NCBI RefSeq assembly: GCF_039536245.1
Contig: NZ_BAAAYN010000079.1
Coordinates: 8,123-66,141, forward strand
Origin: Cryptosporangium minutisporangium
GTDB lineage: Bacteria; Actinomycetota; Actinomycetes; Mycobacteriales; Cryptosporangiaceae
Direction of reading: 5' to 3'
DNA: 58,019 nucleotides
Shown: one piece after another, positions 15,540 through 43,062 of the stretch
Numbering within the stretch: the stretch's first letter is position 1
How the letters are laid out: every line of letters begins with the position of its first letter
Notes under the pieces: model-generated
Told to the model about the DNA's origin: nothing
What the model saw: the letters and a program-made list of their open reading frames with translations, nothing else
The model's database searches: none
Position numbers and translations under genes: made by a program

Positions 15540-15881
15540 GTGACGCGCTCACCGCCCACCGGGGACGAACTGGTCGCGGTCCTGTCGACGCTGGCCAACC
15601 CGCACCGGTTGCGGGTGGTCGCGGCGCTGCGCCGGGAGCGGACGTACGTGAGCCGGCTCGCCCGTGAGTTGGGCATCAGCCGGCCGCTGCTCCAGGTGCA
15701 CCTGCGCAAACTGCAGGCCGCCGGCTTGGTCACGTCGCAGCTCGAGCTCTCCGAGGACGGCAAGGCGCTGCGCTACTACCAGGTGACCGAGTTCGCGTAC
15801 CAGCTCACCCCGGACACCATCACGGCCGCGGTGCCGACCCTCAGCACGAACCCACCCGCCGAAGCGACGAAGGGAACCTGA
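15540..15881 (+). CDS. ArsR-type winged-helix regulator
   Basis: A 113-residue helix-turn-helix protein. LSTLANPHRLRVVAALRRE is the usual ArsR helix 1-2 region, and RLARELGISRPLLQVHLRKL (~41-60) is the recognition helix. RYYQVTEFAYQLTPDTI forms the wing and C-terminal helix. No Cys pair for metal sensing is seen. It is 2 nt upstream of a small membrane protein and in line with an MMPL exporter, so it probably represses this operon in response to an exporter substrate. The stop is separated from the next ATG only by CC. Confidence 0.88.
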   Translation: MTRSPPTGDELVAVLSTLANPHRLRVVAALRRERTYVSRLARELGISRPLLQVHLRKLQAAGLVTSQLELSEDGKALRYYQVTEFAYQLTPDTITAAVPTLSTNPPAEATKGT

Positions 15882-15883
15882 CC

Positions 15884-16141
15884 ATGGACGGGCACGAAAT
15901 GGCGGAGGTCGTGGGGACGGTCGGCATCTTCACGTTCATCACGGTCGTCGTCTGGCAGCTGTTCGCCACCTGGCGTGCCAAGGCCGCGCTCGTCCGCGAG
16001 GCCGAGTACCGCGAGCTCGCGGCCCGGCTGGTCACCGGCCAGGAGGAGTCCAACCGGCAGCTGGCCGACCTGTCCGGTCAGCTCTCCGACCTCCGCACCC
16101 GCATGACGCAGTTGGAACGCGTCCTGACCGAGGTGGAGTAA
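15884..16141 (+). CDS. Small membrane-anchored coiled-coil protein
   Basis: An 85-residue protein. One transmembrane helix (VGTVGIFTFITVVVWQLF, ~11-28) is followed by a cytoplasmic amphipathic coiled coil to the C-terminus (SNRQLADLSGQLSDLRTRMT). It is translationally adjacent to the ArsR-type gene and precedes the MMPL exporter. I do not recognise a named family. It could be an accessory or scaffold subunit of the exporter, on operon context only. Confidence 0.75.
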   Translation: MDGHEMAEVVGTVGIFTFITVVVWQLFATWRAKAALVREAEYRELAARLVTGQEESNRQLADLSGQLSDLRTRMTQLERVLTEVE

Positions 16142-18594: not shown

Positions 18595-21291
18595 TCAGGA
18601 CAGCATCAGCACCGGCTGAGCGTCCAGCTTCTCCGCGGCGTCCAGCACCGCGGCGCCGTCCTCCTTCGATCGCTCCTCGGCGATCGTCATGGCTGCGAAG
18701 TCGCTGGTCGGTCCCTTGTCGACCAGGACGTACACGGTCACGTACGAGCCGCGCAGTGGCGCCGCGAAGGCGTGCTCCACCGCGTACGTGCCGCTCGGCC
18801 CGGCGTCGACCAGCTTCGTCGTCGCCTCGACCGCGATTCCCCTGGTGTCGTAGCGGACGAGTACCGCCCGGACCGACGGCGCCGGCGCGGTGGCCGTCTT
18901 GAATCCACAGGAGACCTGCTGGGTCCCGCCGTAGCTCGAGTTCGTCGCCCAGAAGTCCGGGGCGGTGGGGCTCTGCGCCGAGCCCTGGGTGGTTCCGCTC
19001 CGGCTGGCGGTCGGTGTCCGAGGCTCGTCGTCCGAGCCGCCGACCGCCATCCAGACCACTGCGACGACCACGGCGACGATCAGCACCAGCACGCCGAGCA
19101 CGGCCGCGATCCCGGCGGGGCCCGGCGGCCCGGCGTCGCCCCCCGGCCCGGCGTCGCGCTTCCGGAGGACGGGGGCGAAGAACGCCGCGAGACGGCTCCG
19201 GGTCCGGTGCGCGACCCTCCGGTCGGAGCCGGGCTCGACGTCGGCGTCGGAGGCGTCCGGGCGGGAAGCGTCCGGGCGGGAGCCGTCGGAGCGGGAAGCA
19301 TCGGGGCGGGAGGCGTCGCGCGTGCGCGCCCCGGCGGACTGCGCGCCCCGCTGGGCGGCGGCGAGCTGCTGGCGCGTCGTCGTCAGCTCCTGCCGGGCCG
19401 ACGCCAGCTCCTGCCGCGCCGAGGTCAGCTCGCGATGCTCGTCCTGCCACAGCGGGAGCACCTGGCCGACGAGATCCGCCGTCGTCCTGGTCAGTCGCGG
19501 CAGGCTACCGAGGTCCCGCAGGTGCGCCTCGAGCGTCGTCGACTGGGTGTCGGACACGGCGACCAGCACGTCGCGTTCGTCGTAACCGTGCTGGAGAAGG
19601 CACTCCAGCCCCGCGTCGACGACGATCGTCCGGTCGGACGCCGCGCGGGCCCGGTCCCGCGTGGTCCTGGCGGCGTAGGACGCCATCCGCGCCCACCACT
19701 GCGGCGGCGTCGGTCCCTCGATCTGCCGGTGCGCGGCCGCGTCCGCAGCCTGCTCGTTCACCCAGCCGGTGACCAGGGCGTACAGACGTTCGTCCCACTC
19801 AGCCGGCCGCTCGGAGACGGCCAGCGCGCAGGCGAGGAGACCACCGAACAGCCGGGCGGAGCGGACGTCCAGCTGTTCGGTCACCGCGCGGACCGCACCC
19901 AGTGGGTCGACCGACGTCTCGATCTGCCGCCGCACGTCGTCGCCGACCGCGTCGCGCTGCCGGATGCGGGCAGCGATCCCGGCGGCGTCGAACGGGTACA
20001 GGTCGGGGTGGTCGGCCGGCTGGTACCCCATGGCCTTGAACAGGGGCGCGCAGGCGATCCGCGCCGCCTGGCTGCTCCAGCGCCCGTACCGCGCGGTGAA
20101 CGCCTGGATCAGGGCCCAGTTCTGCTCGTGGTCGAGGCTCTGGTTCACGATCGAACCCAGCCAGGCGAGGTACCCGTCGGACGGTGAACGGTCATCGCTG
20201 GGCAGGCCCAGCGCGTCCGCGACCGCGTCGTCGGTCTGCAGATGGCCGAGAAGCCCCTGGAACAGCAGCACGGCGACCCCGGTCTCCAACGTCGCGCTCC
20301 CGCCGCGGATCAGCCCGGCCGCGGCGTGCGGCGCCGAGGCCGCGTACTGCCGGACCGTGTCCGGCGCGGCGAGCAGCTTGGCCGTGTGTCCCTCGCTCAC
20401 CAGACGCGGGACGTCGAGCGCCGGGCGCTGCCAGGCGGCGTAGGTGCGCTCCAACGCGGTCCGCACCGACTCGGCGTTCGCGGTCTCTTCCGGGTCGGCG
20501 ACGTAACCCTGGGCCAGGCCGCGCGCGACGAGCGTCACCAGGTCGCCGGTGTCCGCGCCGCGCTCCAGCCGACGCCGCTGCCCGCGCATGTTGTCGAGCC
20601 AGAGGTCGACCTCGGCCGCCGCCGACCCGGCGAGCCGGCGCATGGGCGGCGACCACTCGCCGACGACGGCGTTCTGCGCCGCGCGGACGGACTTCGCCGG
20701 CTGCAGCAGGCAGGTGTGCCAACGCAGCGCCCGCGACACCTTCGTCGGAACCACCGCGAGCACCGCGGGCAGCACGTTCGCCATCAGCTCCGGTCCGGCC
20801 GGCACGATCGTCATGCCGGCCGAGCCCAGCAGCGCGGTGAGCAGCTCCGCGGTGGCCTTCTCGAACTCGGCGTCGCCGGTGACCGCGGACGCGACCGCCG
20901 GTACGCTCACCTCCGACCGGCTCCACGGCATCCGGTCGGCGCTGCCGCGGTCCGCGCTGGTCACCAGTGCCGCCGCCGCACGCCAGACGACCGACGCCGG
21001 ATGCCGGCCGTGAGCGAAGGCGAACTGGACGGTGCCCGCCCGGTGCCCGAGGCCGCGGCCCTGCACGGTGAAGCACCAGTGGTCCGCCGAGCCGATCGGA
21101 ACCGAGGACAGGCTCCAGATCGGAATTCCGGTGAGGTCCTGGAGGCTCTCCGGCGGCTGGGGGACCAGCTGGAGCTGGTCGTTCGCGACCGCCCAGTACT
21201 GGTCGGGGACGTTCTCGGTGGACTCCCGCTCCTGCCGCCAGCCCTGGCCGGTGTCGGTCCACCCGACGGTGGTGAAGCCCACGGTCTCCAT
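18595..21291 (-). CDS. Large one-pass membrane protein, GTPase-associated (GAP1-like) candidate
   Basis: An ~898-residue protein, last of a seven-gene operon. The N-terminus (~1-130) contains the segment GRGLGHRAGTVQFAFAH, reminiscent of the GAP1-N type domains described with bacterial TRAFAC GTPases; this is from memory and unconfirmed. The middle (~130-620) is all-helical. A coiled coil with heptads (RQELASARQELTTTRQQL, ~635) and a Ser/Asp/Arg/Pro low-complexity repeat (DASRPDASRSDGSRPDASRP, ~670) follow. One TM helix (IAAVLGVLVLIVAVVVAVVWM, ~745) leads to a ~120-residue extracytoplasmic domain starting SYGGTQQVSCGFKTATAP. The topology suggests a sensor or transducer with a cytoplasmic body and an external head. 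Start is ATG 21291 or GTG 21294; both overlap the stop of the upstream GTPase gene. Confidence 0.8.
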   Translation of the reverse strand: METVGFTTVGWTDTGQGWRQERESTENVPDQYWAVANDQLQLVPQPPESLQDLTGIPIWSLSSVPIGSADHWCFTVQGRGLGHRAGTVQFAFAHGRHPASVVWRAAAALVTSADRGSADRMPWSRSEVSVPAVASAVTGDAEFEKATAELLTALLGSAGMTIVPAGPELMANVLPAVLAVVPTKVSRALRWHTCLLQPAKSVRAAQNAVVGEWSPPMRRLAGSAAAEVDLWLDNMRGQRRRLERGADTGDLVTLVARGLAQGYVADPEETANAESVRTALERTYAAWQRPALDVPRLVSEGHTAKLLAAPDTVRQYAASAPHAAAGLIRGGSATLETGVAVLLFQGLLGHLQTDDAVADALGLPSDDRSPSDGYLAWLGSIVNQSLDHEQNWALIQAFTARYGRWSSQAARIACAPLFKAMGYQPADHPDLYPFDAAGIAARIRQRDAVGDDVRRQIETSVDPLGAVRAVTEQLDVRSARLFGGLLACALAVSERPAEWDERLYALVTGWVNEQAADAAAHRQIEGPTPPQWWARMASYAARTTRDRARAASDRTIVVDAGLECLLQHGYDERDVLVAVSDTQSTTLEAHLRDLGSLPRLTRTTADLVGQVLPLWQDEHRELTSARQELASARQELTTTRQQLAAAQRGAQSAGARTRDASRPDASRSDGSRPDASRPDASDADVEPGSDRRVAHRTRSRLAAFFAPVLRKRDAGPGGDAGPPGPAGIAAVLGVLVLIVAVVVAVVWMAVGGSDDEPRTPTASRSGTTQGSAQSPTAPDFWATNSSYGGTQQVSCGFKTATAPAPSVRAVLVRYDTRGIAVEATTKLVDAGPSGTYAVEHAFAAPLRGSYVTVYVLVDKGPTSDFAAMTIAEERSKEDGAAVLDAAEKLDAQPVLMLS

Positions 21292-23195
21292 CACAGCACT
21301 CCTCGGAGCACGCGCAGCAGCAGCTGGGTCAGGGAGGCGGATCGTTCCTCGGTGTCGGCGAAGTCGACGTCGTCGTCGAGCGGATCCATCGCCGGCCGGT
21401 CCCGGCCCGCGCGCTCCTGCGGCGTCGCCGCGAGCGGCGAGCAGAGGAAGATCCGCAGGTCCGCCCAGGGCATGCTCATCAGTCCGACCATCGCCTCGCC
21501 GTATCCCAGCGCGAAGACCAGGCCGCAGCCCATCGCGGACATCACCAGGTCACGGGTGAGCAGCGGGTCGTCCACACCGGCCCGTCCCGCCTGGTCGGGT
21601 GTTCCCGGCTGGAGCGCGAGGCGCAGATGCTCGCCGATCGACGGGACGTGCAACACCGGCCCGTCGTAGTACGGATCCGCCGGATCGTTGCCGAGCCGCA
21701 CGTCGGCGGCTTGGCCTTCCTCCACGAGCTGCCAGAAGAGGCGGGCGTCCGAGTAGTGGTCGAGCAATGAGTCCGCCAGGTCGGAGAGGCGCTGCTGCAG
21801 CACGTACTCGTCGGCGACCACGCGGACGTCGAGCCGCTTGAGCAGCTCGGCGCAGTCCGGGTCCGGGTGGTAGACCTCGCCGACGTTGCGGGCGACGTGG
21901 TCGAAGTAGTGCACGATCCCGGCCTTGAACGCGCCGCTCCTGCCGATGTCGTCCAGCCGCATCTTCTCCAGCGCCAGCCGGATGACGTCGACCTTGCTGA
22001 CCGCCACCAGCAGCCGGACCCGGCCGAGGTCGTCGGTGAGGAACTCACCCTCGAGCTTCGTGATCCGCTGGGCGATCGTGCGCTGCACCCGGCGACGCTG
22101 CGCCCGGACCGTCCGGGTGAAGTTCTCGGCGTCCGGGTCGTCGCTGGTGGCGCCGGGGCGGAGGCTGCCGCGCAGCAGGCGGTCGTAGGAGCCGGCCTCC
22201 TGGGACTCCAGCGCCTCGCGGGCGAACCGGTCGAACACCGACGCCTCGAGCAGCGGGTCGATCGCCCAGACCAGCGCGTTGTAGCCGCGCAGGGCGGCCC
22301 GCTCGCGGACGGTGCCGACCGCGCTGCGCTCGTCCCGATCCTCGAAGAACTCGCCGGCGAGGTCGACGACACAGGTCCAGCCGTGCCGGCCCGAGGTGCC
22401 GTCGCCGACCCGGGTGCGCAGCATGATCGGCTGCGGCGGCATCGTGCCCCAGCTGGTCTCGTCGACCATCGTCTCGGTGACGGTCTCCTTCAGCAGTTCG
22501 GTCACCGCGTCGTACATCACCGGAGAGACCAGGGTGTTGAGGATCTGGTACGGCGCGAGACTCTGCGCGACCGTGGCACCGATCGGCTGGCCGGTGCTGA
22601 TCGTCGCGTCGTACTGGGTGCGACGCTGGTTGAGCGTGTAGTCCTCGAGCGGAGCTCCGGCGAAGGTCCGGACCGTCACCCGCTCGTCGCGTCGGCCGCC
22701 GGGGAAGTCGCCCACGTGCGTCAAGCTCTGGTCGAGCATGCGGGTGAGCAGGTAAGTCTTGCCGGACGCCACCGGCCCCATCGCGGCGACCGTGTTCCAG
22801 TAGTGGACGCCGAAGTGCTTCTCGTTCTCCCCGAGCGCGGCCGAGTACGGGAAGATGTGCCCGTTGCCGCAGAGGATGTAGGTGTACTCCACCCCGTTCG
22901 GGTGGAACGCCGGCTGGTAGGACTTGCGGGTCGCCGTGCGATTGCCCACTACCGACAGACGCCAGGTGTGCCTGCGGTCCACCGGGCTCCCGACCTCCAG
23001 GCACAGCGCCGGACGCCGCACGTAGAGGTTGTCGGCACCGACCTCCGGCACGTCCCCGAGGACCGCCGCGCAGGCCGGGCACCGATAGCCGTAGCGGGCG
23101 CGGACCTCGGCGAGGACCTCCGGACCGGGCTCCCGTGGCGCGTCGCCCGCGGTCAGCCACTTCTGGTCGAACGGCTCGAACGGCTCGTCGGTCAT
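21291..23195 (-). CDS. Zinc-ribbon TRAFAC-type GTPase (double-GTPase-like)
   Basis: A 634-residue NTPase. It starts with a treble-clef/zinc-ribbon-like region (YRCPACAAVLG ~30-40; LCGNGHIF ~105). Walker A is GPVASGKTYLL (~138), Walker B VVDLAGEF, and the guanine-specificity motif is SKVD in LLVAVSKVDVIRL (~400), a T/NKxD variant. No signal peptide or TM, so it is cytosolic. This matches the TRAFAC-clade GTPases proposed as cores of NTP-dependent conflict/signalling systems, where they partner GAP1 proteins. ATG 23195 overlaps the upstream gene's stop (ATGA) and its own stop overlaps the next start, so stoichiometric expression is likely. The membrane neighbours suggest recruitment to the envelope. 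Confidence 0.8.
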   Translation of the reverse strand: MTDEPFEPFDQKWLTAGDAPREPGPEVLAEVRARYGYRCPACAAVLGDVPEVGADNLYVRRPALCLEVGSPVDRRHTWRLSVVGNRTATRKSYQPAFHPNGVEYTYILCGNGHIFPYSAALGENEKHFGVHYWNTVAAMGPVASGKTYLLTRMLDQSLTHVGDFPGGRRDERVTVRTFAGAPLEDYTLNQRRTQYDATISTGQPIGATVAQSLAPYQILNTLVSPVMYDAVTELLKETVTETMVDETSWGTMPPQPIMLRTRVGDGTSGRHGWTCVVDLAGEFFEDRDERSAVGTVRERAALRGYNALVWAIDPLLEASVFDRFAREALESQEAGSYDRLLRGSLRPGATSDDPDAENFTRTVRAQRRRVQRTIAQRITKLEGEFLTDDLGRVRLLVAVSKVDVIRLALEKMRLDDIGRSGAFKAGIVHYFDHVARNVGEVYHPDPDCAELLKRLDVRVVADEYVLQQRLSDLADSLLDHYSDARLFWQLVEEGQAADVRLGNDPADPYYDGPVLHVPSIGEHLRLALQPGTPDQAGRAGVDDPLLTRDLVMSAMGCGLVFALGYGEAMVGLMSMPWADLRIFLCSPLAATPQERAGRDRPAMDPLDDDVDFADTEERSASLTQLLLRVLRGVL

Positions 23196-23500
23196 CGCAG
23201 CAGGCCGATCACGAGGCAGACGGCGGTGCCGACGATCAGTACCGCGAGTGCGAGGACGCCGCCGGTGCGCAGCCCGGAGACGGTACCGGCGGAGCGGCCG
23301 GCGCGGGCGGCACGGGCGAGGTAGGCGGCGATCGCGGTGTCGACGACGCCTTGGGACGACGCGCGCTTCGACGTCGGCCCGCTCCACTCGCCCAGCTGAT
23401 AGGTGAGCGCGGCGAGCCGCTCGCGCTGCGGCTGGCACGCGCGCCAGACCGCGGCGTCCAGGGCACGGCGTCCGGTGAGGATCTTCAGGAACTCCGACAT
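23192..23500 (-). CDS. Small tail-anchored membrane protein
   Basis: A 102-residue protein in the GTPase/SEDS-PBP operon. The soluble helical N-terminus begins MSEFLKILTGRRALDAAVWR, with a conserved-looking LAALTYQLGEWSGPTSKR segment. A C-terminal TM helix (VLALAVLIVGTAVCLVIGLL) ends two residues from the stop. It overlaps the kinase-like gene by one base and the GTPase gene by four bases. Family unknown to me. By topology it could be a membrane adaptor for the GTPase. Confidence 0.75.
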   Translation of the reverse strand: MSEFLKILTGRRALDAAVWRACQPQRERLAALTYQLGEWSGPTSKRASSQGVVDTAIAAYLARAARAGRSAGTVSGLRTGGVLALAVLIVGTAVCLVIGLLR

Positions 23501-24930
23501 CAGCTCACCAGCTCCCGGAGGATCGTGACGACGAGAAGTAACGCGAACACCGGCAGACCGACCAGCCAGGGCCAGCGCGCCGCCCGGAACTGCCGCCGGG
23601 CGATCTCGCTCCCGACCAGCACGGTCGCGTCCACCACCGCGTCCGGGGCGTCCGGTGGGATGAGCGCGGCCGGGAGGGCGCGGCGCACCTCGTCGATTCC
23701 GGCGCGCTGGGCCTGGATCTGGGCGGTGTCCACCGGCGGCGGGGGCGGGCCGGTGGCGAGGCTCGGCGTTCCCGGAGTGGTTTGGCCGTTGAGGACGTCG
23801 GAGATCCACTGCTCCGCCGACCAGTTGCCGTACTCGTCGAACGGCTCGTCGAACGGCTGCACCAGCGGGTCGATCACCCCGTCCCACTCGGTGCCCCAGG
23901 CGCTGCGGAGCATCACCCGGATCTCGTCGCCGGTGATCGGACTCGGGTCCCGGGCGGCCCGCCCGATCACCGCGTCGGCGGTCGCCGTTCCGGCGACCGC
24001 ACCGAGCGCCACCAGCGCGAACCCGTAGCGGTCGTGCGCCTTGAGCACCTCGGGCGTGATCGGCCGGCACGCGCGGATCGCCGCCGCCAGCTCGGGGTGC
24101 GTGTACGGGAGCGTCAGGCGGATGTCCTGCGGGCGGGAGTCCAGCCGGAGCACCGCGTCCGCATCGATGAGTACGAAGCTCTCGACGGCGCCCACCGAGT
24201 ACGAGCGGACGTTGTCCGGCTTGATGTCGCAGTGCGCGATCCCGGCCTGGTGGCAGGCGTCGATACCGCGGGCGACCGCCTCCAGCTCTTGCAGCCGGTC
24301 CGTCCGGGGCACCGCACCGGCCTCGATGAACGGCATCGGCTCCGGCAGGTACCGGGTCAGCACGAGGAAGCAGTTCTCCGGCTGCGGGTTGTCGTCGCGC
24401 CCGAACCAGCTCCAGAGCCTGGCGTCCGAGGTCTCGAAGATGCCCTCGGCGTCGGCGCCCAGGTGGGTCGTGGCGACCTGCTGGACGCTCTGGTGCGTGA
24501 GGGCGGGAACGACCCAGACCGGCGCGACCGCCCAGGGCGGTCGCAGCGCGGTGCCGTTCAGGGTGGTGTTGGCGTCGAGAACGTCGCTGCTCTGCTGCTT
24601 GAAGTGGCGCATCAGCCAGTGCGCCTCGACCGGGGTCGCGCACCAGTACGCCTTCACGAACCAGTTCTTGAACGGTAACTGCGCCCGCTCGCCCCGCAGG
24701 CCCGCCCGGCCGACCTGCGCGGGAAGCGCCTCGGCGGTCAAGCCGCGGGTGTAGAGGACGTGTGCGCTGATCAGCTGCGCGTCGTGCTCGCCGTCCGCCG
24801 GAATCGGGTACTTGCGGACGACGCTCTGCCGGTTGTCCGGCGGAGCGACGTCGACCGGCAGCGCCCACCCGCCGACCGGCAGGTGGACCCGGTACCAGGG
24901 TGCGGTCTGGAGATCCGGCGCCGCGCTCAT
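23500..24930 (-). CDS. Tail-anchored protein-kinase-like protein
   Basis: A 476-residue protein kinase fold. The beta3 Lys is probably in NWFVKAYW (~91). The catalytic loop is AHCDIKPDNVRS (~229-240; HxD..KPxN complete), the metal-binding Asp is in LIDADAV (DFG replaced by DAD), and an APE-like segment follows in TLPYTHPEL. The N-lobe is long and holds an insert with many aromatics. After the kinase, a proline-rich linker and helical segment end in one TM helix (WPWLVGLPVFALLLVVTIL) a few residues from the stop, so the catalytic domain faces the cytoplasm. There are no PASTA or other external domains, unlike PknB. The key residues suggest it may be active. Likely partners are neighbours in the operon. 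Confidence 0.85.
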   Translation of the reverse strand: MSAAPDLQTAPWYRVHLPVGGWALPVDVAPPDNRQSVVRKYPIPADGEHDAQLISAHVLYTRGLTAEALPAQVGRAGLRGERAQLPFKNWFVKAYWCATPVEAHWLMRHFKQQSSDVLDANTTLNGTALRPPWAVAPVWVVPALTHQSVQQVATTHLGADAEGIFETSDARLWSWFGRDDNPQPENCFLVLTRYLPEPMPFIEAGAVPRTDRLQELEAVARGIDACHQAGIAHCDIKPDNVRSYSVGAVESFVLIDADAVLRLDSRPQDIRLTLPYTHPELAAAIRACRPITPEVLKAHDRYGFALVALGAVAGTATADAVIGRAARDPSPITGDEIRVMLRSAWGTEWDGVIDPLVQPFDEPFDEYGNWSAEQWISDVLNGQTTPGTPSLATGPPPPPVDTAQIQAQRAGIDEVRRALPAALIPPDAPDAVVDATVLVGSEIARRQFRAARWPWLVGLPVFALLLVVTILRELVS

Positions 24931-25967
24931 CAGGCCTCCTCAGCCGAGATCGTGTACTGCAGGACGGACTCGCCGGGCTTGGTGCGGTGTCGCCAGCGCA
25001 GGACGCCGATCCGTGGCAGGGGAACGATGTCGTTCGTCGCCAATTCGAGCGCGTCGAGTGCGATCAGGTAGTCGGGGCGGGCGCCGGTGCGCAGCAGGTG
25101 CGCGCGCCCCTGCCAGTAGCAGAGGAACAGCAGGCGCCCACCGGGGATCGAGCGGAGCAGGCTCAGGTCCATTCCGGCGGCGCCGTCCTCCGCGCCGCCG
25201 ACGCCGCGCCCGACCGGGACCCAGACCGGAGCAGGACGCAGCGTGAACAGCCAGCTCGGCGCGGTGGGCGACGGGGCAGCGCCGTAGCTGAAGCGGATCG
25301 TCCGCTGGCCGGAGAGCGCGCGGGGGGATCGATCCGGGCCGAGCTGGGGGATCGGCGGCAGCGACGCCAGCGCCTCGGCGGCCGGGTCGTGCGGTGCGTC
25401 GGAACTCACGAGCGGCACGGACGCCCGGCCCGGGACCGTCGTGGGCTCCAGCGAGGGCGGCGGCCCGATCGGGTTCGTGGTCGGCTGCGTGAACCGTCGG
25501 CGCGTCGGCGCACCGGGGGACGCCGGAGCGAGCGGGCGTGCGGGCGATCGGGGCACCGTGAAGCGCGAGTCGGCGCTCGCCGGCTCTGCCGCGGGAGGGG
25601 TCGGCGGTTCCGCCGCGGGAGGCGCCGTCGGAGGTGCGGGACGCGTGTCGGGCGGCGGGGCCTCGGAGCTGGTGGCGCCCGGGAGCCGGAGCCGGTATCC
25701 CTTGCCGACCAGCCCGTCCCCGCCGACGACGTCCGCTGCGACGTGCGCGGTACCCAGATTGACCTGGACGATCTGCGCCAGCGCGTCGGCGATGTTCGCG
25801 CGGAAGCGACGGTCGGCGGCCAACTCGTGCTCGGTCTCCACGACGACGCGGATCGGTCCGCCGGCTTCGATCAGCTCGGTGCCGTGCTCGGCGCAGAACT
25901 GGCTCACCTCCGCGAGCACCGCCTCGTACACCTCGGCCGCGTCCTCGCGCCGCTGTCGGTCGCCCAC
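24930..25967 (-). CDS. Orphan cytoplasmic protein with proline-rich linker
   Basis: A 345-residue protein I do not recognise. An N-terminal alpha/beta domain (~1-90; AEVYEAVLAEVSQF..., ELIEAGGPIRVVVETEHEL) is followed by a long low-complexity Pro/Ala/Thr linker (~90-205). A C-terminal beta-rich domain contains WLFTLRPAPVWVPVGRG and GRLLFLCYWQGRAHLL. No TM or signal. GTG 25967 has a strong GAGGAGG site 6 nt upstream. It lies 11 nt after the SEDS-PBP gene and its stop overlaps the kinase-like gene. The Thr/Ser-rich linker next to a kinase makes it a plausible phosphorylation substrate or adaptor, which is inference only. Confidence 0.72.
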   Translation of the reverse strand: MGDRQRREDAAEVYEAVLAEVSQFCAEHGTELIEAGGPIRVVVETEHELAADRRFRANIADALAQIVQVNLGTAHVAADVVGGDGLVGKGYRLRLPGATSSEAPPPDTRPAPPTAPPAAEPPTPPAAEPASADSRFTVPRSPARPLAPASPGAPTRRRFTQPTTNPIGPPPSLEPTTVPGRASVPLVSSDAPHDPAAEALASLPPIPQLGPDRSPRALSGQRTIRFSYGAAPSPTAPSWLFTLRPAPVWVPVGRGVGGAEDGAAGMDLSLLRSIPGGRLLFLCYWQGRAHLLRTGARPDYLIALDALELATNDIVPLPRIGVLRWRHRTKPGESVLQYTISAEEA

Positions 25968-25978
25968 CGGAAACCTCC

Positions 25979-28900
25979 TCATTCGACGGCGTCGATGACC
26001 TGTTGGATGAGCCATCTGGCCCGCTTGCTCCCGGCCACGTCGTCCGGCGCATCCAGGGCGACCGCGAACGACACCGGACCGTCCGCGCCCTGCACGATCC
26101 CGACCAGCCAGGCCGTGCGGCACGCGTAGACGTCGGACGGGCAGGCGTCGTCGGGATGGATCTCGTGCGTGCCGGTCTTCACGAAGAGATCGCCCTCCGC
26201 CGTCAGCGCCTCGGCGGTGCCGTACTCGGCGGTCTTGCTCAGCGCGGCCCGGAGTTCCGCGGCCTCCGCCGGGGTGAGCGCCGACGCCGCCCGCACCGGC
26301 GCCACCTGCGTCGTCACCCCGGTCGCCGGGTCGGTGACGGCGGTGACCAGCAGCGGCCGGACCGGGACGCCGTCGTTCGCGATCGCGGCCATCACCGTGG
26401 CCAGGCCGATCGGAGTGCCCTCGACCTGACCCTCGCCGATCGCGTTGAGTCCCCGGCCGGATCCGGCCTCCGGGTTGGCCGGGATCCGGGTGTCGCTACC
26501 GAGTGTGCGATCGGCGAACTGCTGCGGCTCGGTCGCGCCGTAGCCCACGGTGCCGTCCTCGTTCGTCACGAGCGACTCCACGGTCAACCCGAGCGACGTC
26601 GCCATCCGGCTGATCGCGTCCCAGCCGACCGTGCGGGCGAGCTCCACGAACGCCGTGTTGCACGAGTACGCGAGCGCGTCGGTCAGCGTGATCGTGCCGT
26701 TCTCGGTGGCCGGGCACGCCCCGTCGGAGTAGTTGCGGATCGGTCGGTTGCCGTCCCACGTGGTGGTGGGCGGCGCCGGGATCCGATCCGACGCGTGGTG
26801 GCCCGGCTGGTGCAGGTAGGCGGCGGCCACCACGACCTTGAACGTGGAGCCGAGGCCGAACCGGCGGCCGACCACCCGGTTCACGTCGGTCGACGGCAGG
26901 TCGGTCACGGACTTCCGGCCGCCGACGTACCGGCGCTCGATCTCCTGCTCGGCGGCCTTCCGTGCGGTCTCGCCCTTCGTCGGTTCCTGCAGCCGGTAGT
27001 AGCCGCATCGGCGTCGCTCGTCGGCGTCGCGCTGCCCGACGCCGCAGTCGGTGCCGGGCCGCCCGGTGATCTCCCCGTCGTCGCCGACGACACCGGATCG
27101 CTGGCGGGTCTCCCACTCGGTGACGTCCGGACGCTCGCCGAACGGGGTGTCCGACGTCGGCGACGCGGTGGACGTCGGGGCGGCGCCGCAGGGACCCGGG
27201 CCCGCCGGCTCCGGAACGCTGCTTCCGGCGAGCACGCGCCCGGTGGAGGCGTCCATCACCACGATGCCGCCGGCGAGCGGGCTCCCACCCTCCGGGCTGG
27301 ACCGTCGCATCGCGGTGTTGACGGTCCGCTGCAGGGCCGGGTCGAGACCGAGCGTCAGACCGCCGTCCGGCACGTCCCCGCCGGGCAGCAGCCGGCGGCG
27401 CAGGCTCGATCCCGCGGTCGCGCCACCGCCGATGACGTCGGAGTACGCGACGTCGAGCAGCCCGGACCGTCCGTCGCCGACCCGGAGCAGGCCGCCGAGG
27501 TCCGCCGCGGTGAGCCGGTCGGGGCCGCACGGTCCGGCCCAGCTCCCGGAGGTGCGCGTGGTGGCCAGCACGGTGTCCCCGATCCGCACCTCCAGCCGCG
27601 ACCGATTGGCCGCCACCAGATCGGTCGAGCACTGGGCCGGATCGATCGGGCGGGTCGACGGACCGGCCGATCCGTACGACGGCGTGGGCTCGGACGCGCA
27701 GGCGTACCGGTTCTCGTCGTAGGCCGCCCAGACCGAGGTCAGGCTCGGCCACGGTGCCCGGTACGGGGTCAGCGTCACCAGGACGCCGACGACCAGGCAC
27801 AGCGGAAAGCTCAACCCGATCAGCACCCGCGCCGGTGGCCCGGGCAGCCGGGCCGCCAGACCGGTCGCTGCCACCGGACGCTGTCCTGCGCGACGGATCG
27901 GCGCCCCGGCGGCGCGGGCGGCGTGGAACGTACCGGCGTAACCGGCGACCGCGACCGCGGCGATCGCCAGGATCAGCGCCAGCGAGGCCTGCGGGCCGCG
28001 GGAGAGGAACGGCGCGGTGATGCCGGAGTGCGGGACGGCGCCGAGCGTCGCGGCGAACACGAACACGAACTGGCCGGTGATCAGCGCGGCGAGACCGGTG
28101 CCGAGCAGCGCCGCGACCGTCAGCTGCCTGCGGGTTCCGCGGAACCGCCCGGCCGTGGGCTGCTGCTCGCTGCGGGGAGCGAGGTCCGCCGGGAACTGGA
28201 TCAGCGCCAGCCCGAGGAGCACGATCGCGGCCGCGCACGCCAGCACGGTCAGCCCACCGAGCTTGTTCCACGCCGACGCCAGCACGAAGTCGGTGGATGC
28301 CGCCGCCAGCGGCGGGTCGAGGACGTCGGCGAGCCCTCGGCCCCAGAGGCCACCGTCGTTCACCGCGGCGAGGGCGTGGGCGAGCTGCGACCGTTCGCTC
28401 TCCAGGTCGACGACGCCGAGCCGCTGGCACACCTCGGCGCCGTCGGGAACGCCGGCCGGGGGAGTGGCACCGTCCGGCAGCGGATAACACGGGGCGTTCC
28501 AGCGGTACGCCCACGGATCGCGCCAGATCAAAAAGCGCTCGCTCACGTAGTCGGTGAACGGCGCGACGACGGCGGCCAGCGCGGCCAGTGCGGCGGCGAT
28601 CAAGCCGTACGGCCGGAGATACCGCAGTGCCCCGGACCCGGTCCAGGCCCGCAGCCGGGCGCGCAGGCCGGGCGCCTCGCCCTCCAGCGCGTCGAACGGC
28701 GTCGCCCTCGCTTCGATGCTCAGCGCGGCCCACAGCACGCCCAGCGTGGCGGCGAGCACCGGGATCAGCGTGCCGAAGTCACTGCGCACCGCGCTGCAGA
28801 ACGCGACGGCGCCGACCAGCGCCATCGGGTAGAGAAGGAAGCGCGTCTGCCGCTCGAACGTGCGGAGGCTGCGCCACGGCGTAGTCCGGAGACCGGTCCG

Positions 28901-29764
28901 CAGCTGCCCGATCGCGGTCCGGAGCCCGATCGTCCGGAACACGACCGCCTCGAGGCTGTGACGGCTCACGACGACTGCGAGGACGACGAGGAACAGCGCC
29001 TTGCCGAACTCCGGCGTCGCCACACCGAGGAAGACCAGGTTGTTCCCGGCGATCACCGGCGCGAGGAACGGTGCGGTGACCAGCGCACCGACCCAGAGCC
29101 ACGACCAGACCGGGTTCCGCCGCGCCCGCTGTTTCCAGGCCCGCCGCCACCTGCTCCAATCCGCCCGGGCGTCGCCGGCGACCGTGGTCCGGCGCCGTGC
29201 GTCACCGGGAGCCGGCCGGTCGTCGGCGTCCGCCTGGCCGGTGCGCCGGGCCACCAGCAGCCCGACCGCGAGCAGCACCAGCAGGCCGACGATGGGCAGC
29301 CCCAGCGACTTCAGCCCCGACTCGACGACCGGACCCCGCAGGCCCTCCGCGGCTCCGCTGTCCGGCGTCCGGACCAGATTGAGCCGGATCGTCAGCTGGC
29401 AGCCGAGGTGGAGGAGCGACACGACGAGGACCAGGATCGCCAGGCCCGGCGCCGAGACGTGCACGTCCGAACGCGCCGCGTGCGCGGCCCGCAGCGCCCG
29501 GACGCCGAGGAGCAACGCGGCCAGTAGGCCGGCGCCGACCGCGTACACCCAGACGACGCTGACGCCGCCGCTGAGCCAGACGCCGATCCAGACCAGCGCC
29601 AGGGGGGCGACCAGCCACCACTGGCGTCGGCCGCCCGCGACCGGAACCGCCGCCCACGCACGGTCCCGGCGCCGGAGGAGGTCGGCCGCGAGCACGACCG
29701 CCGTGACCATTCCGGCGAGCACGAGCAGGTTACTGATCGCGCTCACGGAGAAGAATCCACTCAC
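25979..29764 (-). CDS. Natural fusion of SEDS (FtsW/RodA) glycosyltransferase and penicillin-binding transpeptidase
   Basis: A single 1261-residue polypeptide. The N-terminal ~660 residues are polytopic and SEDS-like: TPEFGKALFLV (the ExxK-type TM motif), GGLWGRGLADV followed by STDFVLASAWNKLGGLT (counterpart of the FtsW HTDFIF...E.G loop), and SGITAPFLSRGPQASLAL (counterpart of TGVPLPFISYGG). A last TM helix (VLIGLSFPLCLVVGVLVTL) leads to an extracytoplasmic PBP half: a dimerisation/linker region, then GLDPALQRTVNTAM and the transpeptidase motifs GSTFK (SxxK, ~972), YSCN (SxN, ~1033) and VKTGTHE (KTG, ~1195). It would couple glycan polymerisation and crosslinking in one chain. GTG 29764 follows a GAGAGAGAAC site. 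It sits inside the signalling operon. Confidence 0.93.
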   Translation of the reverse strand: MSGFFSVSAISNLLVLAGMVTAVVLAADLLRRRDRAWAAVPVAGGRRQWWLVAPLALVWIGVWLSGGVSVVWVYAVGAGLLAALLLGVRALRAAHAARSDVHVSAPGLAILVLVVSLLHLGCQLTIRLNLVRTPDSGAAEGLRGPVVESGLKSLGLPIVGLLVLLAVGLLVARRTGQADADDRPAPGDARRRTTVAGDARADWSRWRRAWKQRARRNPVWSWLWVGALVTAPFLAPVIAGNNLVFLGVATPEFGKALFLVVLAVVVSRHSLEAVVFRTIGLRTAIGQLRTGLRTTPWRSLRTFERQTRFLLYPMALVGAVAFCSAVRSDFGTLIPVLAATLGVLWAALSIEARATPFDALEGEAPGLRARLRAWTGSGALRYLRPYGLIAAALAALAAVVAPFTDYVSERFLIWRDPWAYRWNAPCYPLPDGATPPAGVPDGAEVCQRLGVVDLESERSQLAHALAAVNDGGLWGRGLADVLDPPLAAASTDFVLASAWNKLGGLTVLACAAAIVLLGLALIQFPADLAPRSEQQPTAGRFRGTRRQLTVAALLGTGLAALITGQFVFVFAATLGAVPHSGITAPFLSRGPQASLALILAIAAVAVAGYAGTFHAARAAGAPIRRAGQRPVAATGLAARLPGPPARVLIGLSFPLCLVVGVLVTLTPYRAPWPSLTSVWAAYDENRYACASEPTPSYGSAGPSTRPIDPAQCSTDLVAANRSRLEVRIGDTVLATTRTSGSWAGPCGPDRLTAADLGGLLRVGDGRSGLLDVAYSDVIGGGATAGSSLRRRLLPGGDVPDGGLTLGLDPALQRTVNTAMRRSSPEGGSPLAGGIVVMDASTGRVLAGSSVPEPAGPGPCGAAPTSTASPTSDTPFGERPDVTEWETRQRSGVVGDDGEITGRPGTDCGVGQRDADERRRCGYYRLQEPTKGETARKAAEQEIERRYVGGRKSVTDLPSTDVNRVVGRRFGLGSTFKVVVAAAYLHQPGHHASDRIPAPPTTTWDGNRPIRNYSDGACPATENGTITLTDALAYSCNTAFVELARTVGWDAISRMATSLGLTVESLVTNEDGTVGYGATEPQQFADRTLGSDTRIPANPEAGSGRGLNAIGEGQVEGTPIGLATVMAAIANDGVPVRPLLVTAVTDPATGVTTQVAPVRAASALTPAEAAELRAALSKTAEYGTAEALTAEGDLFVKTGTHEIHPDDACPSDVYACRTAWLVGIVQGADGPVSFAVALDAPDDVAGSKRARWLIQQVIDAVE

Positions 29765-29907
29765 CGTTCTCTCTCAGGTCCGGTCGTTCTCGGGCAGCGC
29801 AATTCCGTGCGACGGCTACGCGAAATCGGCCCCTGTTCGGGGGTCGCGGATCCAACGCGGCGCGATTGCGACAGAATCGGTCGGCCGAGTCGCGGAGAAA
29901 TGATCGA

Positions 29908-31065
29908 TCAGGGTCCGAAAAGGGTGGACCCACTAGTGCGCTGGCTCGCCCGATCGAGGCGACGGCGCATTTCCTGTTCACCGAGTTCGGCCGAGAGCTC
30001 GGTCTGTTTTGTCCGTAGCCGGGCGCGGGCGGCCAACTCTTCCTCGCGCGCTTTGCTGGCGTGTTCGATGTGCTGCTCGGCGCTTTTTATCTGATCCTGA
30101 TTGTAGGAAGCCAGCGCCACCTCGTACGGGCCCGGCGCACCCAGCGTCATGAGGAACTTCAACAGGACCGGAAGAACCTCGACCAGCGTGATGAACGCCC
30201 ACAGCACGAGGTAGGTCGCCTGTACGCCGCTGTCCTTCGAGCGCAGCGACGACAGCGCCTCGACCCGCATCAGGAGGCCCTTGTTGCGGCTGATCGTGTC
30301 CGCCGACTCCTGCAGCGCCGCGGCCTGACCGTCCCGCCGGCGCTCGAGCTCCTGCCGGTCCGCGCCGATGTTCTGGTTGCCGACCGTGTGCAGGTGCGTG
30401 ACCGCGGACGCCACGGCCGCGCTGTACTGCCGGCGGCGGGCGTCCCGTTCGTTGCTCGCCGCCTCGACCCGGACGCCGCTGTCCAGAGCCCGCTTGTAGG
30501 CCTGATCCGCCTGGTAGGCGGCGCGCGCGGCGGCCTTGACGTTGGGCTGGTCCTTGACGACCTGGTCGTTGCCGTCTTTGGCGGCGAGGTACGCCTCGTC
30601 GGTGGCGACCTTCTTCTCCCACACCCCGACCTGGTAGCGCGCGAAGATCGCCCGCCGCTCCTGGTCGCGCGTGACGTCGTGCTGGGCGGCGATCTCCTTC
30701 TCGATCTCGTTGTTGAAGACCCGGAGGACCAGCGGCGTGGAGACGACCACGCCGATCAGGAGCGCCATGAGGAGCCGGGGAAGTGCTTGGAGGAAGTTCT
30801 TCCCGACGGTGTCGCGCCGAGGGAACGCCCCGACCAGCCAGCGGTCGAGGTTCGCGATCGCCAGCCCCCAGAACAGTCCTATCGCCACGCACACCACGAT
30901 CGGCGCCTGTAACGCCAGATGGAGCGCCAGGCCCGCGGAGAGCGCGGCCATGACGGCGGTCGTGAGCACCACACCGCCCAGACCTTCGTACTTGCCGGAC
31001 TCTCCCGGTGTTTTCGCGAGGACTTCACGATTAGCGCCGGAAAGCCAGATCAGGAAACGCCCCAC
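29908..31065 (-). CDS. DUF4407 membrane protein
   Basis: A 385-residue protein. Two TM helices near the N-terminus (~32-75), a third at ~97-115 (ALPRLLMALLIGVVVSTPLV), a long soluble helical/coiled-coil region (~118-280, rich in E, K, A, Q) and a fourth TM (LVLWAFITLVEVLPVLLKFL, ~285). It ends in a charged cytoplasmic coiled coil. The order and the GLFWGLAIANLDRWLV motif fit DUF4407 proteins, whose function is unknown. GTG 31065 has a GAGGGGG site and begins at the family-typical RFLIWLSG. It is the first gene of the seven-gene operon, separated by 143 bp from the SEDS-PBP fusion. The extracytoplasmic coiled coil could contact the cell wall synthase. Confidence 0.82.
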   Translation of the reverse strand: MGRFLIWLSGANREVLAKTPGESGKYEGLGGVVLTTAVMAALSAGLALHLALQAPIVVCVAIGLFWGLAIANLDRWLVGAFPRRDTVGKNFLQALPRLLMALLIGVVVSTPLVLRVFNNEIEKEIAAQHDVTRDQERRAIFARYQVGVWEKKVATDEAYLAAKDGNDQVVKDQPNVKAAARAAYQADQAYKRALDSGVRVEAASNERDARRRQYSAAVASAVTHLHTVGNQNIGADRQELERRRDGQAAALQESADTISRNKGLLMRVEALSSLRSKDSGVQATYLVLWAFITLVEVLPVLLKFLMTLGAPGPYEVALASYNQDQIKSAEQHIEHASKAREEELAARARLRTKQTELSAELGEQEMRRRLDRASQRTSGSTLFGP

Positions 31066-38707: not shown

Positions 38708-39423
38708 CCCATGGCCAGGACCCGCCTGCGAACACTACGCGTCGACGATGCTGAGTAGCGGTGAGTTGTCCGCCATCGCGATGCCCACTGGATCGAGTTG
38801 CGGGCCTGGCCGGCGGACGCAACCCTGAGAGTCTGCGTACAGGTCTCGTGCGCTTCGACGACCCCTGGAATTATCCGGAGCTTCTTCTCGCGCCACCGGA
38901 GCGGCGAGTAAGAGGGACTGTGCTGGGACTTATCGCAGATGAGCACCTCTACGGAGGTTCCCTCCGGTGGCCGGGCGCGGTTGCCGCAACCCACACTCGG
39001 TTCTGCCCGTGCAATACGCATACCCGACCGACGCACGCACGCACGCACGATACGTGTGTTGCGGCGACCGCTCATCGGCTTCCTGCGGATGTCGGCTCGA
39101 CATCGGTCACACAGCCCGCCGCCTCCCACCAAGTCCCCACTGACACGGGCTGAACGCCGCACGCCAAATAGCCTTCCGGCCGGCGCGCGGATCGCGGCAC
39201 GAGAGGATGCTCGAAACGGGCCCCGAACGTGGCCGATCGACATGCAGTAGCCGTAGTCGTTGACCCATGTCCCCGAGTCGCACACGCCGTGCGCGGCAGG
39301 AGAGGTCGATTCGGCCAGCCACCCCTCAGAGCGAAGACGAGGAAATATGCGCTCGCGGCGGCAGGCAGCTGGGACACTTGGACGGTACCTCTGGTGTCCA
39401 TCCGTCGACGGGGGTTCGATGCC
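38708..39423. other. 716-bp non-coding or decayed stretch
   Basis: No convincing gene. Reading frames on both strands lack codon bias and conserved motifs. GC is lower than in the flanking core genes. It contains a (ACGC)n microsatellite at 39031-39049. It probably includes the promoter of the NACHT gene plus decayed mobile DNA. Confidence 0.5.
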
Positions 39424-42400
39424 GTGGAGGCCGTGATTCTCCGGGTGGGCGGTGCTGTTGTCGGGTCCGCAGTCAGGGCATGGCTGACCGATCGAAAAAG
39501 CCATCGTGAGCGATCGATGGGTCTATCTGAGTTGATGAACGTCCGCCTCGGCGATGACTTCCGGCGCAGGCGATTCAATCGCGAGGTGGAGGCAATGGCG
39601 GACGCCGTAGCGCAGCGTCTGCTGCCGTTGTGGAGCCAGGAGTTGGGTGACCTCGACGTCGGTGAACGCAGGGCCGCGCTCGACGCTGTGGCGGCGGGGT
39701 TCGAAGCGACCGACCTGTCGGACGCTTCGCTCTTCGCGATGGATGTCGATGCGAAGAACCTTGCCCAGAGACTACGGGCTCGTTTACCGGACGCAACCGA
39801 AAGGGCCGGGCTGAGCGCGGCTGGAAGCAAATTCCACGACGTTGTCCTCGACGAGTGTTGCGCTTGCTATGTCGAGTTGGTTGTTCATCTGCCGCCCTTC
39901 ACCGCACGCGCCACGGCGGAGGCGCTCGGCCGCATGTCCAGGCTCGCCGACCAGGTGAACCTAGCGCTGCAGCGGCTACCGGCTCGAACGCTCACGGCGC
40001 CGCACGGCACAGCACACGACGAGGAATTCCGGCTTCGGTACCTCCGCCTGGTCAGCGCAACTCTGGACGATATGGAACTGTTCGGGGTCGACATCCGCAG
40101 CTACCGCCCGACAACGACTTTGAGTGTCGCCTACATCAGTTTGTCCGCCACGACCCGGATGCTGGGTCGACGCACCGGTCGGACGAGACCGTACGATTCC
40201 GCTCAATGGCTTGCCGACGCCGCCGCGCCGCCGCGTGACACCACGGTGCGTATCGAGCAAGCATTGGGCAGTTCCAGGCGCATCCTGGTTCGCGGTGACG
40301 CCGGATCGGGAAAATCAACCCTGCTCAAATGGCTCGCCATCAATTCGGCTCGAGGCACCTTCAGTGCTGATCTCGCGCACCTCAATGGGCACACTCCGTT
40401 CCTGATCAAACTTCGGAGCTACGCGGGTCGGCAGATGCCCAAACCCGAGGAGTTCCTCGATGACCTAGCAGATCCGCTCACCGCGTTGATGCCAGCCGGG
40501 TTCGCGCATCGCCGCATGGAATCAGGCACCGCGCTCGTACTCGTCGACGGTATTGATGAGCTGCCGGCCGATGAGCGTCGCCGAGTCCGCGACTGGCTGC
40601 GTAAGCTGGTAAGCAGCTTTCCTGATAGCCACATTGTGGCTACCTCCCGGCCCGCTGCCGCTGCTGCGTCATGGCTGGAGCCTGAAGGTTTCGTTTCGGC
40701 ATTCCTCGAGCGAATCAGCTCCGGCGACGTCCGGACGCTCATTCGGCGTTGGCACGACGCAGTGCGCGAGGCCGATAGCCTGCCGTGTGACCCACGGGAC
40801 TTGCCGCGGTACGAGGCCGCATTGCTCGGCAGGCTCGAAGGAAGCGCCGATCTGAGAGCCCTCGCGACAATTCCGCTACTGTGCGCAATGCTCTGTGCGC
40901 TCAACCTTGACCGGCGTACATACTTACCCAAGGATCGGATTTCCATCTATCAGGCGGCCCTCACCCTGCTGCTGGACAGGCGTGATGCAGAGCGGCAAAT
41001 TCCTAGTGCTCGAACGACGCACCTCGGCGTGGATGACAAGCGGCAAATACTGCGGCATCTTGCGTGGCGGCTGACGATCAACGGTCGCTCGGAACTCTCG
41101 CGAACCGAGGCCATCCAACGGATCACCGACAAGTTGACCTCCATGCCTCACCTAAGCGGCGACGCCAGCGAGGCCCTCGAACACCTAATTCACCGCAGCG
41201 GCGTCCTGCGAGAACCGGCCGCAGACCGCATCGATTTCGTGCATCGAACCTTCCAAGAATACCTGACTGCGGAGGAAGCCGCTGATCAGGGTGATATCGG
41301 CCTCCTCATTCACAACGCCCACCTGGATCACTGGCGCGATGTCGTTGTCATGGCTGCCGGTCTCGCGAATTCGCCGTTGCGCCATGAACTCATCATAGGC
41401 ATACTCGACCGCGCTGAAGCTGAGCCGCGGAATCGCCGTCGGTTAAGACTGCTCGCAGCGTCGTGCCTGGAGACGGCTCCAAGCCTCGCCCGCGAATTGG
41501 CTAATCGCGTTGAGACATGCATGGCGGGGCTCCTACCCCCACGTGGGACGGCTGAAGCGCGTTCCCTGGCCTCCGTCGGCGCCAGCCTGCTGCCGAGAAT
41601 GCTCGTGGAGCCCGGAGATTTGAGCGAAGCCGCCGCCGCAGCCACAGTCCGTACGGCTGCCTTGATAAACGGGTCGGAGGCGTGGCCCGTATTGGAACGG
41701 TTCGCCGCGGACCCGCGGCATCGTGTTCAACGTGAACTAATCGCCGTCTGGGAGTACTTCGACCCCGACGAATATGCCGACCGGATATTGGCCGATGCGC
41801 CTCTGATCAACGGCTCCGTAACAATTGTCAATCAAAACCTACTGGCGAGTCTTACCCGACTACGTCGGCTTGCTGAGCTCGAAGTCCGATTGAACGATGT
41901 AACAGATCTTGATTGTCTGGTCGGGTTGCCGCGCCTGAAAATGCTTTCCATTGATGGTGACTTCCAGGATTTGGCACCATTGGCTCCGCACGCGGAACTG
42001 GAAAACGTCCTGCTGGCGACGAGAAGCCAGCTAGACCCAGGGCCTCTCACGCTCCTGCCGAAGTTAGCTCGCCTGTTTTATTATCCGGGGAAGGTCGCCG
42101 ATCTCAATTTCATCCGATCGATGTCCCTGGCTGACCTTGCGGTCAACGGAATACACGAGGTGGCTGACTTTTCCGCGCTCGGGACGCAACAGCGGCTCAC
42201 GTCCCTCGCCCTGTATGATTATGCAGAAGATGCCGACCTCAGCGCGCTTCGCGACCTACCGATTCTACGAAGCCTCGACGTCGGCCGCATAAGACCAACA
42301 ACGCATCTCAATGCGGTGTCACGTCCAGGGATTGCTCGACTCGCCGCTCTGGCGCCAGGGCTCACTCAACTCGGCTTCCTTCAAGTATCGATGTCCTCCG

Positions 42401-42726: not shown

Positions 42727-43062
42727 CGCGGTGTGTTCGTTCGGCTGGCGTTCGGGTTCTCACCAGAGTTGGATCCCAGGTGCACAAGACGGCAGGTTCG
42801 GACGTTCCGGGTCCCGCTCCAGCCAAACTCGGGACTGCATTCGTGGCCTCTCGCCGTCCGCTCGACCACGAGCGCCGACTGCCGCTGAATCGTTCACCGC
42901 TCCCGGTCGCCGCCGTTCGCACGGTGATTCCGCGATTCGGCCACGAACTCGGCTCAATCGGCGCCTGATGGTGCCGACTTCATGGCTGATCGGCGGCGCG
43001 CGCCCCGGGCGGCCCGTCCGGTGGCCGGAACATCCGCTCATCGGCAAGGTCGCGTGTTGTCG
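42727..43062. other. Intergenic stretch, no gene recognised
   Basis: 336 bp between the NACHT-LRR stop and the integrase remnant. Frames show no codon bias or motif. Nothing supportable seen. Confidence 0.5.

Follow-up and report, generated by a model that had tools for sequence, protein, structure and literature searches.

Why would an actinomycete keep a peptidoglycan synthase in one tight row of genes with a GTPase and a protein kinase? The question is raised by a 58,019-nucleotide stretch of the Cryptosporangium minutisporangium genome (contig NZ_BAAAYN010000079.1, from an assembly of 9.2 Mb), the whole of which we call the window. A first-pass annotation had described seven same-strand genes here as one operon, and all seven are indeed present on the minus strand, within 18595-31065 (Table 1). 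Six of them, at 18595-29764 (-), make up the cassette that is the subject of this analysis: a fusion of a SEDS protein with a penicillin-binding protein (PBP), a linker protein, a kinase, a small protein, a zinc-ribbon GTPase and a last protein. The cassette is real and conserved and, as far as we searched, undescribed: no published description of it was found in the open-licence literature, judged by titles and the starts of abstracts. The reading that we favour, with a probability of about 0.55, is that these genes would encode a self-contained, membrane-bound and switch-controlled accessory peptidoglycan synthase.

The six genes are packed closely. The linker/kinase and kinase/small-protein junctions read TGATG, the small-protein/GTPase junction ATGA and the GTPase/last-protein junction GTGATG, while SEDS-PBP and the linker are joined either by an ATGA overlap, if the linker starts at the ATG that overlaps the SEDS-PBP stop, or across an 11-nt gap with GAGGAGG before the GTG at 25967. 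The G+C content of the locus (72-75%) is similar to that of its near surroundings. A search with a single GTPase sequence found homologues in 4 of 150 genomes of the order (the window genome, its congener G036, G014 and G131) and in 2 of 394 genomes of the class; within the window's genus, two of the four genomes searched carry the gene, the window's own included. In the Pseudonocardiaceae, the family of G014, a GTPase profile found 12 of 297 genomes, from 3 of 46 genera (Actinokineospora and Lentzea among them), and a kinase profile found exactly the same 12, with one match each; both searches scored only the 4-5 top candidates of each genome, at limits of E 1e-3 and 1e-20. A scan of genome contigs with a single sequence gave no match, and one with an alignment gave four loci. 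The 12 Pseudonocardiaceae loci, the window and one congener add up to 14 loci, and the order SEDS-PBP, linker/kinase, small protein, GTPase, last protein is the same in the window and all 13 others, counting G670, where a contig end cuts SEDS-PBP, and G787, where the small gene was not detected. As the order is kept even at 31-34% GTPase identity, the arrangement is more than chance, and the original grouping of genes stands because checking the gene neighbourhood in other genomes found the homologues co-located in all 13 further loci. The conserved order of the six core genes, together with the identical sets of 12 genomes, already speaks against the view that these are chance neighbours, or several transcription units without joint function, which we consider highly improbable. 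It does not cover the seventh gene, for a DUF4407 protein, which stands 143 bp upstream of SEDS-PBP and was not found with the Pseudonocardiaceae cassettes; of the proposed seven-gene operon, the packing thus bears out six genes and leaves DUF4407 aside.

Table 1. Genes of the cassette and the neighbouring DUF4407 gene, with positions in the window.
Feature	Position	Strand	Length and start
SEDS-PBP fusion (RodA/PbpA-type)	25979..29764	-	1261 aa
Linker protein	24930..25967	-	GTG start, GAGGAGG ahead of start
Protein kinase, C-terminal membrane anchor	23500..24930	-	476 aa
Small protein, one C-terminal membrane segment	23192..23500	-	102 aa
Zinc-ribbon GTPase, DO-GTPase2 kind (by sequence)	21291..23195	-	634 aa
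Last protein, GAP1-like (suggestive)	18595..21294	-	899 aa
DUF4407 membrane coiled-coil protein, neighbour	29908..31065	-	GTG at 31065, 385 aa

The likely product of the cassette is indicated by SEDS-PBP, a single open reading frame (ORF) in which a RodA-like glycan polymerase precedes a PbpA-like transpeptidase (Pfam FTSW_RODA_SPOVE 1.1e-8 and Transpeptidase 1.5e-27; bare values in this text are E-values). The SEDS aspartate Asp492 and the transpeptidase motifs STFK 973-976, SCN 1034-1036 and KTG 1196-1198 are invariant in all 13 full-length copies, the window's included, the contig-cut copy L014 having been left out of the comparison; SxxK, SxN and KTG are the motifs of class B PBPs (bPBPs). 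With the catalytic residues of both halves kept throughout, the proposed wall synthase is supported. Asp492 aligns with the STDF motif of the canonical RodA of the host genome, at the site of Asp262 in periplasmic loop 4 of E. coli RodA. The two activities predicted here are those of the RodA-PBP2 SEDS-bPBP synthase (PMC10449877, PMC6207328; these and the papers below are cited for those parts of their text available to us), from which the cassette enzyme differs in having a divergent SEDS half and in belonging to a cassette with a GTPase and a kinase. The literature already mentions single-ORF SEDS-PBP fusions (PMC10449877), and the fusion itself is therefore not new. Work on a fused RodA-PBP2 found the SEDS partner stimulated by changes in the bPBP (PMC6207328), which makes control of a fused synthase mechanistically plausible.

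The part of the cassette that would act as a switch is its GTPase. Pfam gives no match for the window, L006 and L008 copies, and two relatives match DO-GTPase2 below the threshold (0.018 and 0.03); among the 150 scored of 161 candidates in the host genome, none, not even the cassette's own GTPase, matches DO-GTPase2 above the cut-off, and the GTPase profile has only matches of E 1 or worse among solved structures. Comparing a profile of 14 homologues with one of 23 DO-GTPase ORFs (18 different genes) by hhalign gives a probability of 96.8 and E 2.1e-10, with a reversed control at 0.057. The motifs CPxC 39-42, C109-G-x-G-H113, the P-loop G140...GK146, D278-L-x-G-E282 and K401-x-D403 are invariant in 14 of 14 sequences. 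A Walker B glutamate and an N-terminal zinc ribbon characterise DO-GTPase2 (PF19993; PMC7159879), and all 14 have both, the glutamate lying in D278-L-x-G-E282. Because of the profile-profile match and the invariant zinc ribbon, P-loop, DLxGE and KxD, we assign the protein to DO-GTPase2 as a divergent and remote member. DO-GTPase2 is a TRAFAC clade (PMC7159879), in line with the TRAFAC GTPases to which the first-pass annotation had pointed.

The protein whose gene follows immediately after that of the GTPase, in the window as in all 13 other loci, is harder to place. In the window a single membrane segment lies near residue 729 and roughly 150 aa form an external tail (membrane segments here and below are from hydropathy); the 12 Pseudonocardiaceae proteins end shortly past the membrane segment. 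There is no Pfam match in the three members scanned and no solved relative up to E 10. The first-pass annotation had invoked a GAP1-type partner for the GTPase, and we compared the last protein with 13 GAP1 ORFs (12 different genes; families PF20013, PF20014 and PF20052). Whole-length hhalign comparison gives 0.74 with 5 sequences and 0.0097 with 14, and the GAP1-M part alone gives E 2.7e-4 at the expected place. Controls for GAP1-M lie at 0.023 and 0.046 (reversed) and at 0.0099 and 0.02 (the lowest of 29 unrelated profile pieces); the other controls lie at 0.55 (reversed whole-length), at 0.068 and 0.11 (reversed N+M) and, for unrelated whole profiles, down to 0.04. The GAP1 proposal accordingly keeps one GAP1-M stretch in its favour, but finds neither a Pfam family nor a detectable GAP1-N2 part (0.22 for the N part) on its side.

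Linker, kinase and small protein lie between the synthase and the GTPase. In all 12 Pseudonocardiaceae loci the linker and the kinase are a single protein. When the two split linkers are compared with the 12 fused proteins, hhalign gives a probability of 96.2 and E 2.6e-9 over 101 columns; judged by this match, the C-terminal domain of the linker corresponds to the domain fused ahead of the kinase. The linker has no Pfam match, and the fused domain has no solved relative up to E 10. FhaA (PF12401 plus FHA) was considered as an identity for the linker and rejected, with no Pfam match and hhalign values of 0.18 (4 fused proteins), 0.26 (2 linkers) and 0.36 (12 fused proteins). Pfam Pkinase matches the kinase at 4.5e-5 (23.4 bits), below the cut-off of 31.7. 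Lys93, His233-x-Asp235, Lys237, Asn240 and Asp256 are invariant in 14 of 14 sequences, and a catalytic Lys, the HxD Asp, an Asn and a DFG-type Asp are hallmarks of protein kinases; the usual glycine loop was not seen on inspection by eye. The small protein has only a chance-level Pfam match (0.078), and a profile detects a homologue at the corresponding position in 12 of the other 13 loci, the exception being G787, where about 320 bp are left. One membrane segment each is seen in the kinase (at about residue 453), the small protein and the last protein, and none in the GTPase or the linker.

How the cassette came to its scattered hosts can be approached through trees of the GTPase and of the last protein, each with 14 rows, the main groups of which agree with each other and disagree with genus. 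G789 (genus g191, locus L083) pairs with G791 (g42, L084), their GTPases being 92% identical across two genera, and G736 (g15) groups with G787 (g42). Placing the genus labels on the tree takes 5 changes against a minimum of 3, and shuffled labels average 7.3; the GTPase tree has two long branches and the last-protein tree one row of unusual letter make-up. The disagreement with genus would follow from horizontal transfer or from old duplicates with loss, and the closely similar cassettes of G789 and G791 point to transfer.

Is the cassette then simply a second copy of something the host already has? A canonical fhaA-fhaB-pstP-rodA-pbpA-pknB locus lies separately in the host genome, on contig C44, and another SEDS gene, probably ftsW, on C26, the cassette being the third SEDS match of the genome. 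The canonical locus likewise has a RodA-type SEDS protein, a PbpA-type transpeptidase and an adjacent membrane kinase; in the cassette, by contrast, SEDS and PBP are fused, a GTPase pair is added, and Pfam finds no FHA, PP2C or PASTA match. Such a locus could have been duplicated and remodelled for development, where it would build the wall of spores or sporangia, the GTPase pair serving as a morphogenetic switch and not as a stress device. The best solved relative of the PBP half is 3lo7, 'Penicillin-binding protein A' (1.3e-34), the SEDS-PBP profile scores the host's canonical RodA (8e-11) and PbpA (1.9e-31) above the other SEDS and PBP genes fetched (2.9e-5 and 3.3e-13), and a kinase adjoining SEDS and PBP recalls the canonical order. 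However, the linker is without FhaA similarity (E 0.18-0.36), the kinase without a PASTA match and the window cassette without PP2C, and carriage by so few Pseudonocardiaceae and by only half of the searched genomes of the window's genus, with trees that disagree with genus, is unlike a core developmental locus. We regard a developmental origin and role as rather unlikely. A divergent PBP whose active-site motifs are intact, in a genome that has the canonical set elsewhere, could also be part of a spare, drug-insensitive synthase whose switch serves antibiotic tolerance; the sequence gives no sign of lower beta-lactam affinity, though, and we hold this to be improbable.

Among described systems, the cassette is best compared with the DO-GTPase/GAP1-N2 systems, for which a conflict role near the membrane has been predicted and which fall into tubulin, HSP70 and kinase themes (eLife 2020, PMC7159879). 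With the kinase theme it shares a zinc-ribbon DO-GTPase followed by an often membrane-anchored partner, a kinase whose catalytic residues are kept and which has a membrane helix, and an actinobacterial setting (PMC7159879). It differs in having a peptidoglycan synthase as a fixed component; the main text of PMC7159879 uses none of the words SEDS, FtsW, RodA, transpeptidase and penicillin. It differs also in that the window cassette has no Pfam match to FNIII, PP2C or vWA, that its GTPase stays below the Pfam cut-off, and that its GAP1 resemblance is of the limited kind described above. Conservons (cvn), the actinobacterial G-protein operons with a histidine-kinase-like CvnA, a roadblock protein CvnB, CvnC and a Ras-like GTPase, likewise pair a kinase-like protein with a GTPase (PMC13343842), but no roadblock, CvnC or Ras-like family appeared in the Pfam scan of the window genes, a general scan and not a dedicated search.

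Taken as an accessory synthase, the cassette might work as follows. The DO-GTPase2-type GTPase and the GAP1-like, membrane-anchored last protein would form a nucleotide switch at the membrane, joined by the membrane-anchored kinase, with the linker domain as adaptor, and by the small anchored protein. On a signal, the complex would activate the SEDS-PBP fusion, which could polymerise and cross-link glycan unaided, since both activities lie in one chain. The stop-start overlaps, the linker-kinase fusion in 12 loci and the identical 12-genome sets for GTPase and kinase support this proposal. From the parts and their arrangement we infer one complex, control of the synthase by the switch, a signal, and wall synthesis that is local or for emergencies; inducibility, and a role in stress, development or phage defence, would be further inferences of the same kind. 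Tentatively, and with clearly less confidence, the cassette may be a conflict- or stress-type GTPase system with a private peptidoglycan synthase as its output, in which the switch directs wall synthesis to places where the envelope is damaged or attacked, independently of the elongation and division machines.

Several observations weigh against an actively switched synthase. In the window copy the position five residues ahead of the SEDS aspartate is Ala; the other 12 copies all have Pro there. E. coli RodA loses its activity with Pro257Ala, likewise five residues ahead of its Asp262, but not with Glu258Ala or His260Ala (PMC10449877); lacking the equivalent of this required proline, the window copy might be a weak or inactive polymerase, although the canonical RodA of the host genome also has no Pro at this position. 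GAP1 membership of the last protein is only suggestive, and Pfam shows neither the PP2C nor the vWA partner of the published kinase theme among the window cassette genes. Finally, three further genes that lie 3' of the last gene in Pseudonocardiaceae, X1-X3, were not found beside the cassette in the window's genus, where it either works without them or uses other proteins.

These three genes are seen in L012, L013, L015 and L079-L086, with the start of X1 in L014. X1 is present in 12 of 12 loci, truncated in one, and has a coiled coil and two membrane segments (three members checked). X2, with one membrane segment, a small external part and the motif GWLFAEL invariant in 9 of 9 aligned sequences, and X3, which is soluble, are each found in all 11 loci that reach that far. 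The members scanned matched no Pfam family, nine X2 members giving only chance-level matches, and X1 has no useful solved relative (myosin at 0.0022 and other coiled coils). In the window and L006/L007 there is no match to X1 or X2; an X3 profile match at 15863-16135 (+) of the window (E 0.013) was set aside as chance. The external tail of the window's last protein shows no similarity to X2 (0.51) or X3 (0.073). A reading of X1/X2 as ZorAB/MotAB was rejected: ZorA models match five of six X1 members (best 5e-5), but in the member inspected they fall at profile positions 416-624, in the coiled-coil tail and alongside other coiled-coil families, and not in a MotA/ExbB-type channel part, and the Pfam matches of X2 are at chance level.

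On the other side of the cassette, the DUF4407 gene (Pfam 1.5e-63) is also found beside the cassette in the congener G036 (L006), at 63% identity. A DUF4407 profile found none in the 12 Pseudonocardiaceae loci, for which 8-22 kb each were available, the single hit (E 0.91) being at chance level. The contigs of L013 and L014 end close to or inside the SEDS-PBP gene, and their upstream part is short (L013) or missing (L014). DUF4407 has no similarity to X1 (0.29). It is thus part of the surroundings only in the window's genus, its membership of the cassette is doubtful, and the suggestion that it is the sensor of the system fares poorly, given its gap and its absence from the 12 other-family loci.

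Distribution and kinship also bear on phage defence. Following the proposal made for DO-GTPase/GAP1 systems, the cassette could be an anti-phage or conflict system whose effector is wall synthesis or its deregulation, blocking entry, sealing the cell or killing it. The kinship of the GTPase to DO-GTPase2, the published prediction of GAP1-N2 conflict systems near the membrane (PMC7159879) and the sporadic, genus-crossing distribution would fit; yet among the seven window proteins PADLOC matches only the kinase, through generic kinase models (best 9e-8 MkoA and 2.7e-7 PD-T4-6), the ZorA matches of X1 lie in a tail that unrelated coiled-coil families match too, and for the known family, too, a role in conflict is only predicted. 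Viral contigs held no GTPase homologue, a result that is uninformative for a host system. On this evidence we think an anti-phage or conflict role of this kind unlikely.

Other features of the window may be recorded here. A stretch of lower G+C (61-66%) contains, about 8 kb from DUF4407, a gene for a NACHT protein (39229-42726, +) with an NNH1 helical domain and a leucine-rich repeat match (Pfam 1.3e-49, 9.7e-20 and 1.2e-6), which we take to be NLR-like, presumably of a kind that is anti-phage in bacteria. Adjoining it in the same stretch, the gene at 43038-43961 (-) has a phage integrase N-terminal SAM-like domain (2e-5) and may mark an acquired island. At the start of the window, positions 1-2000 have a strong AT skew (0.41) at 78.6% G+C, and the ORF at 439-2985 (848 aa) has no Pfam match at E 0.001.

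What would an accessory, switch-controlled synthase mean for these bacteria? DO-GTPase/GAP1 systems have been described by sequence analysis (PMC7159879), and in the literature naming them, as far as its text was available, we found no experiment on them. Here the companion is an enzyme with an assayable product, a polymerised and cross-linked glycan, and the target of a GTPase switch becomes directly testable. If the proposal is right, a GTPase and a kinase would switch a form of peptidoglycan synthesis that is separate from the usual elongation and division loci. Joining a GTP-driven switch and a kinase to a private wall-building enzyme suggests wall synthesis that could be switched on when and where it is needed, and the cassette would then be a variant of GTPase-centred systems, carried by scattered soil actinomycetes, with a wall synthase as its companion.

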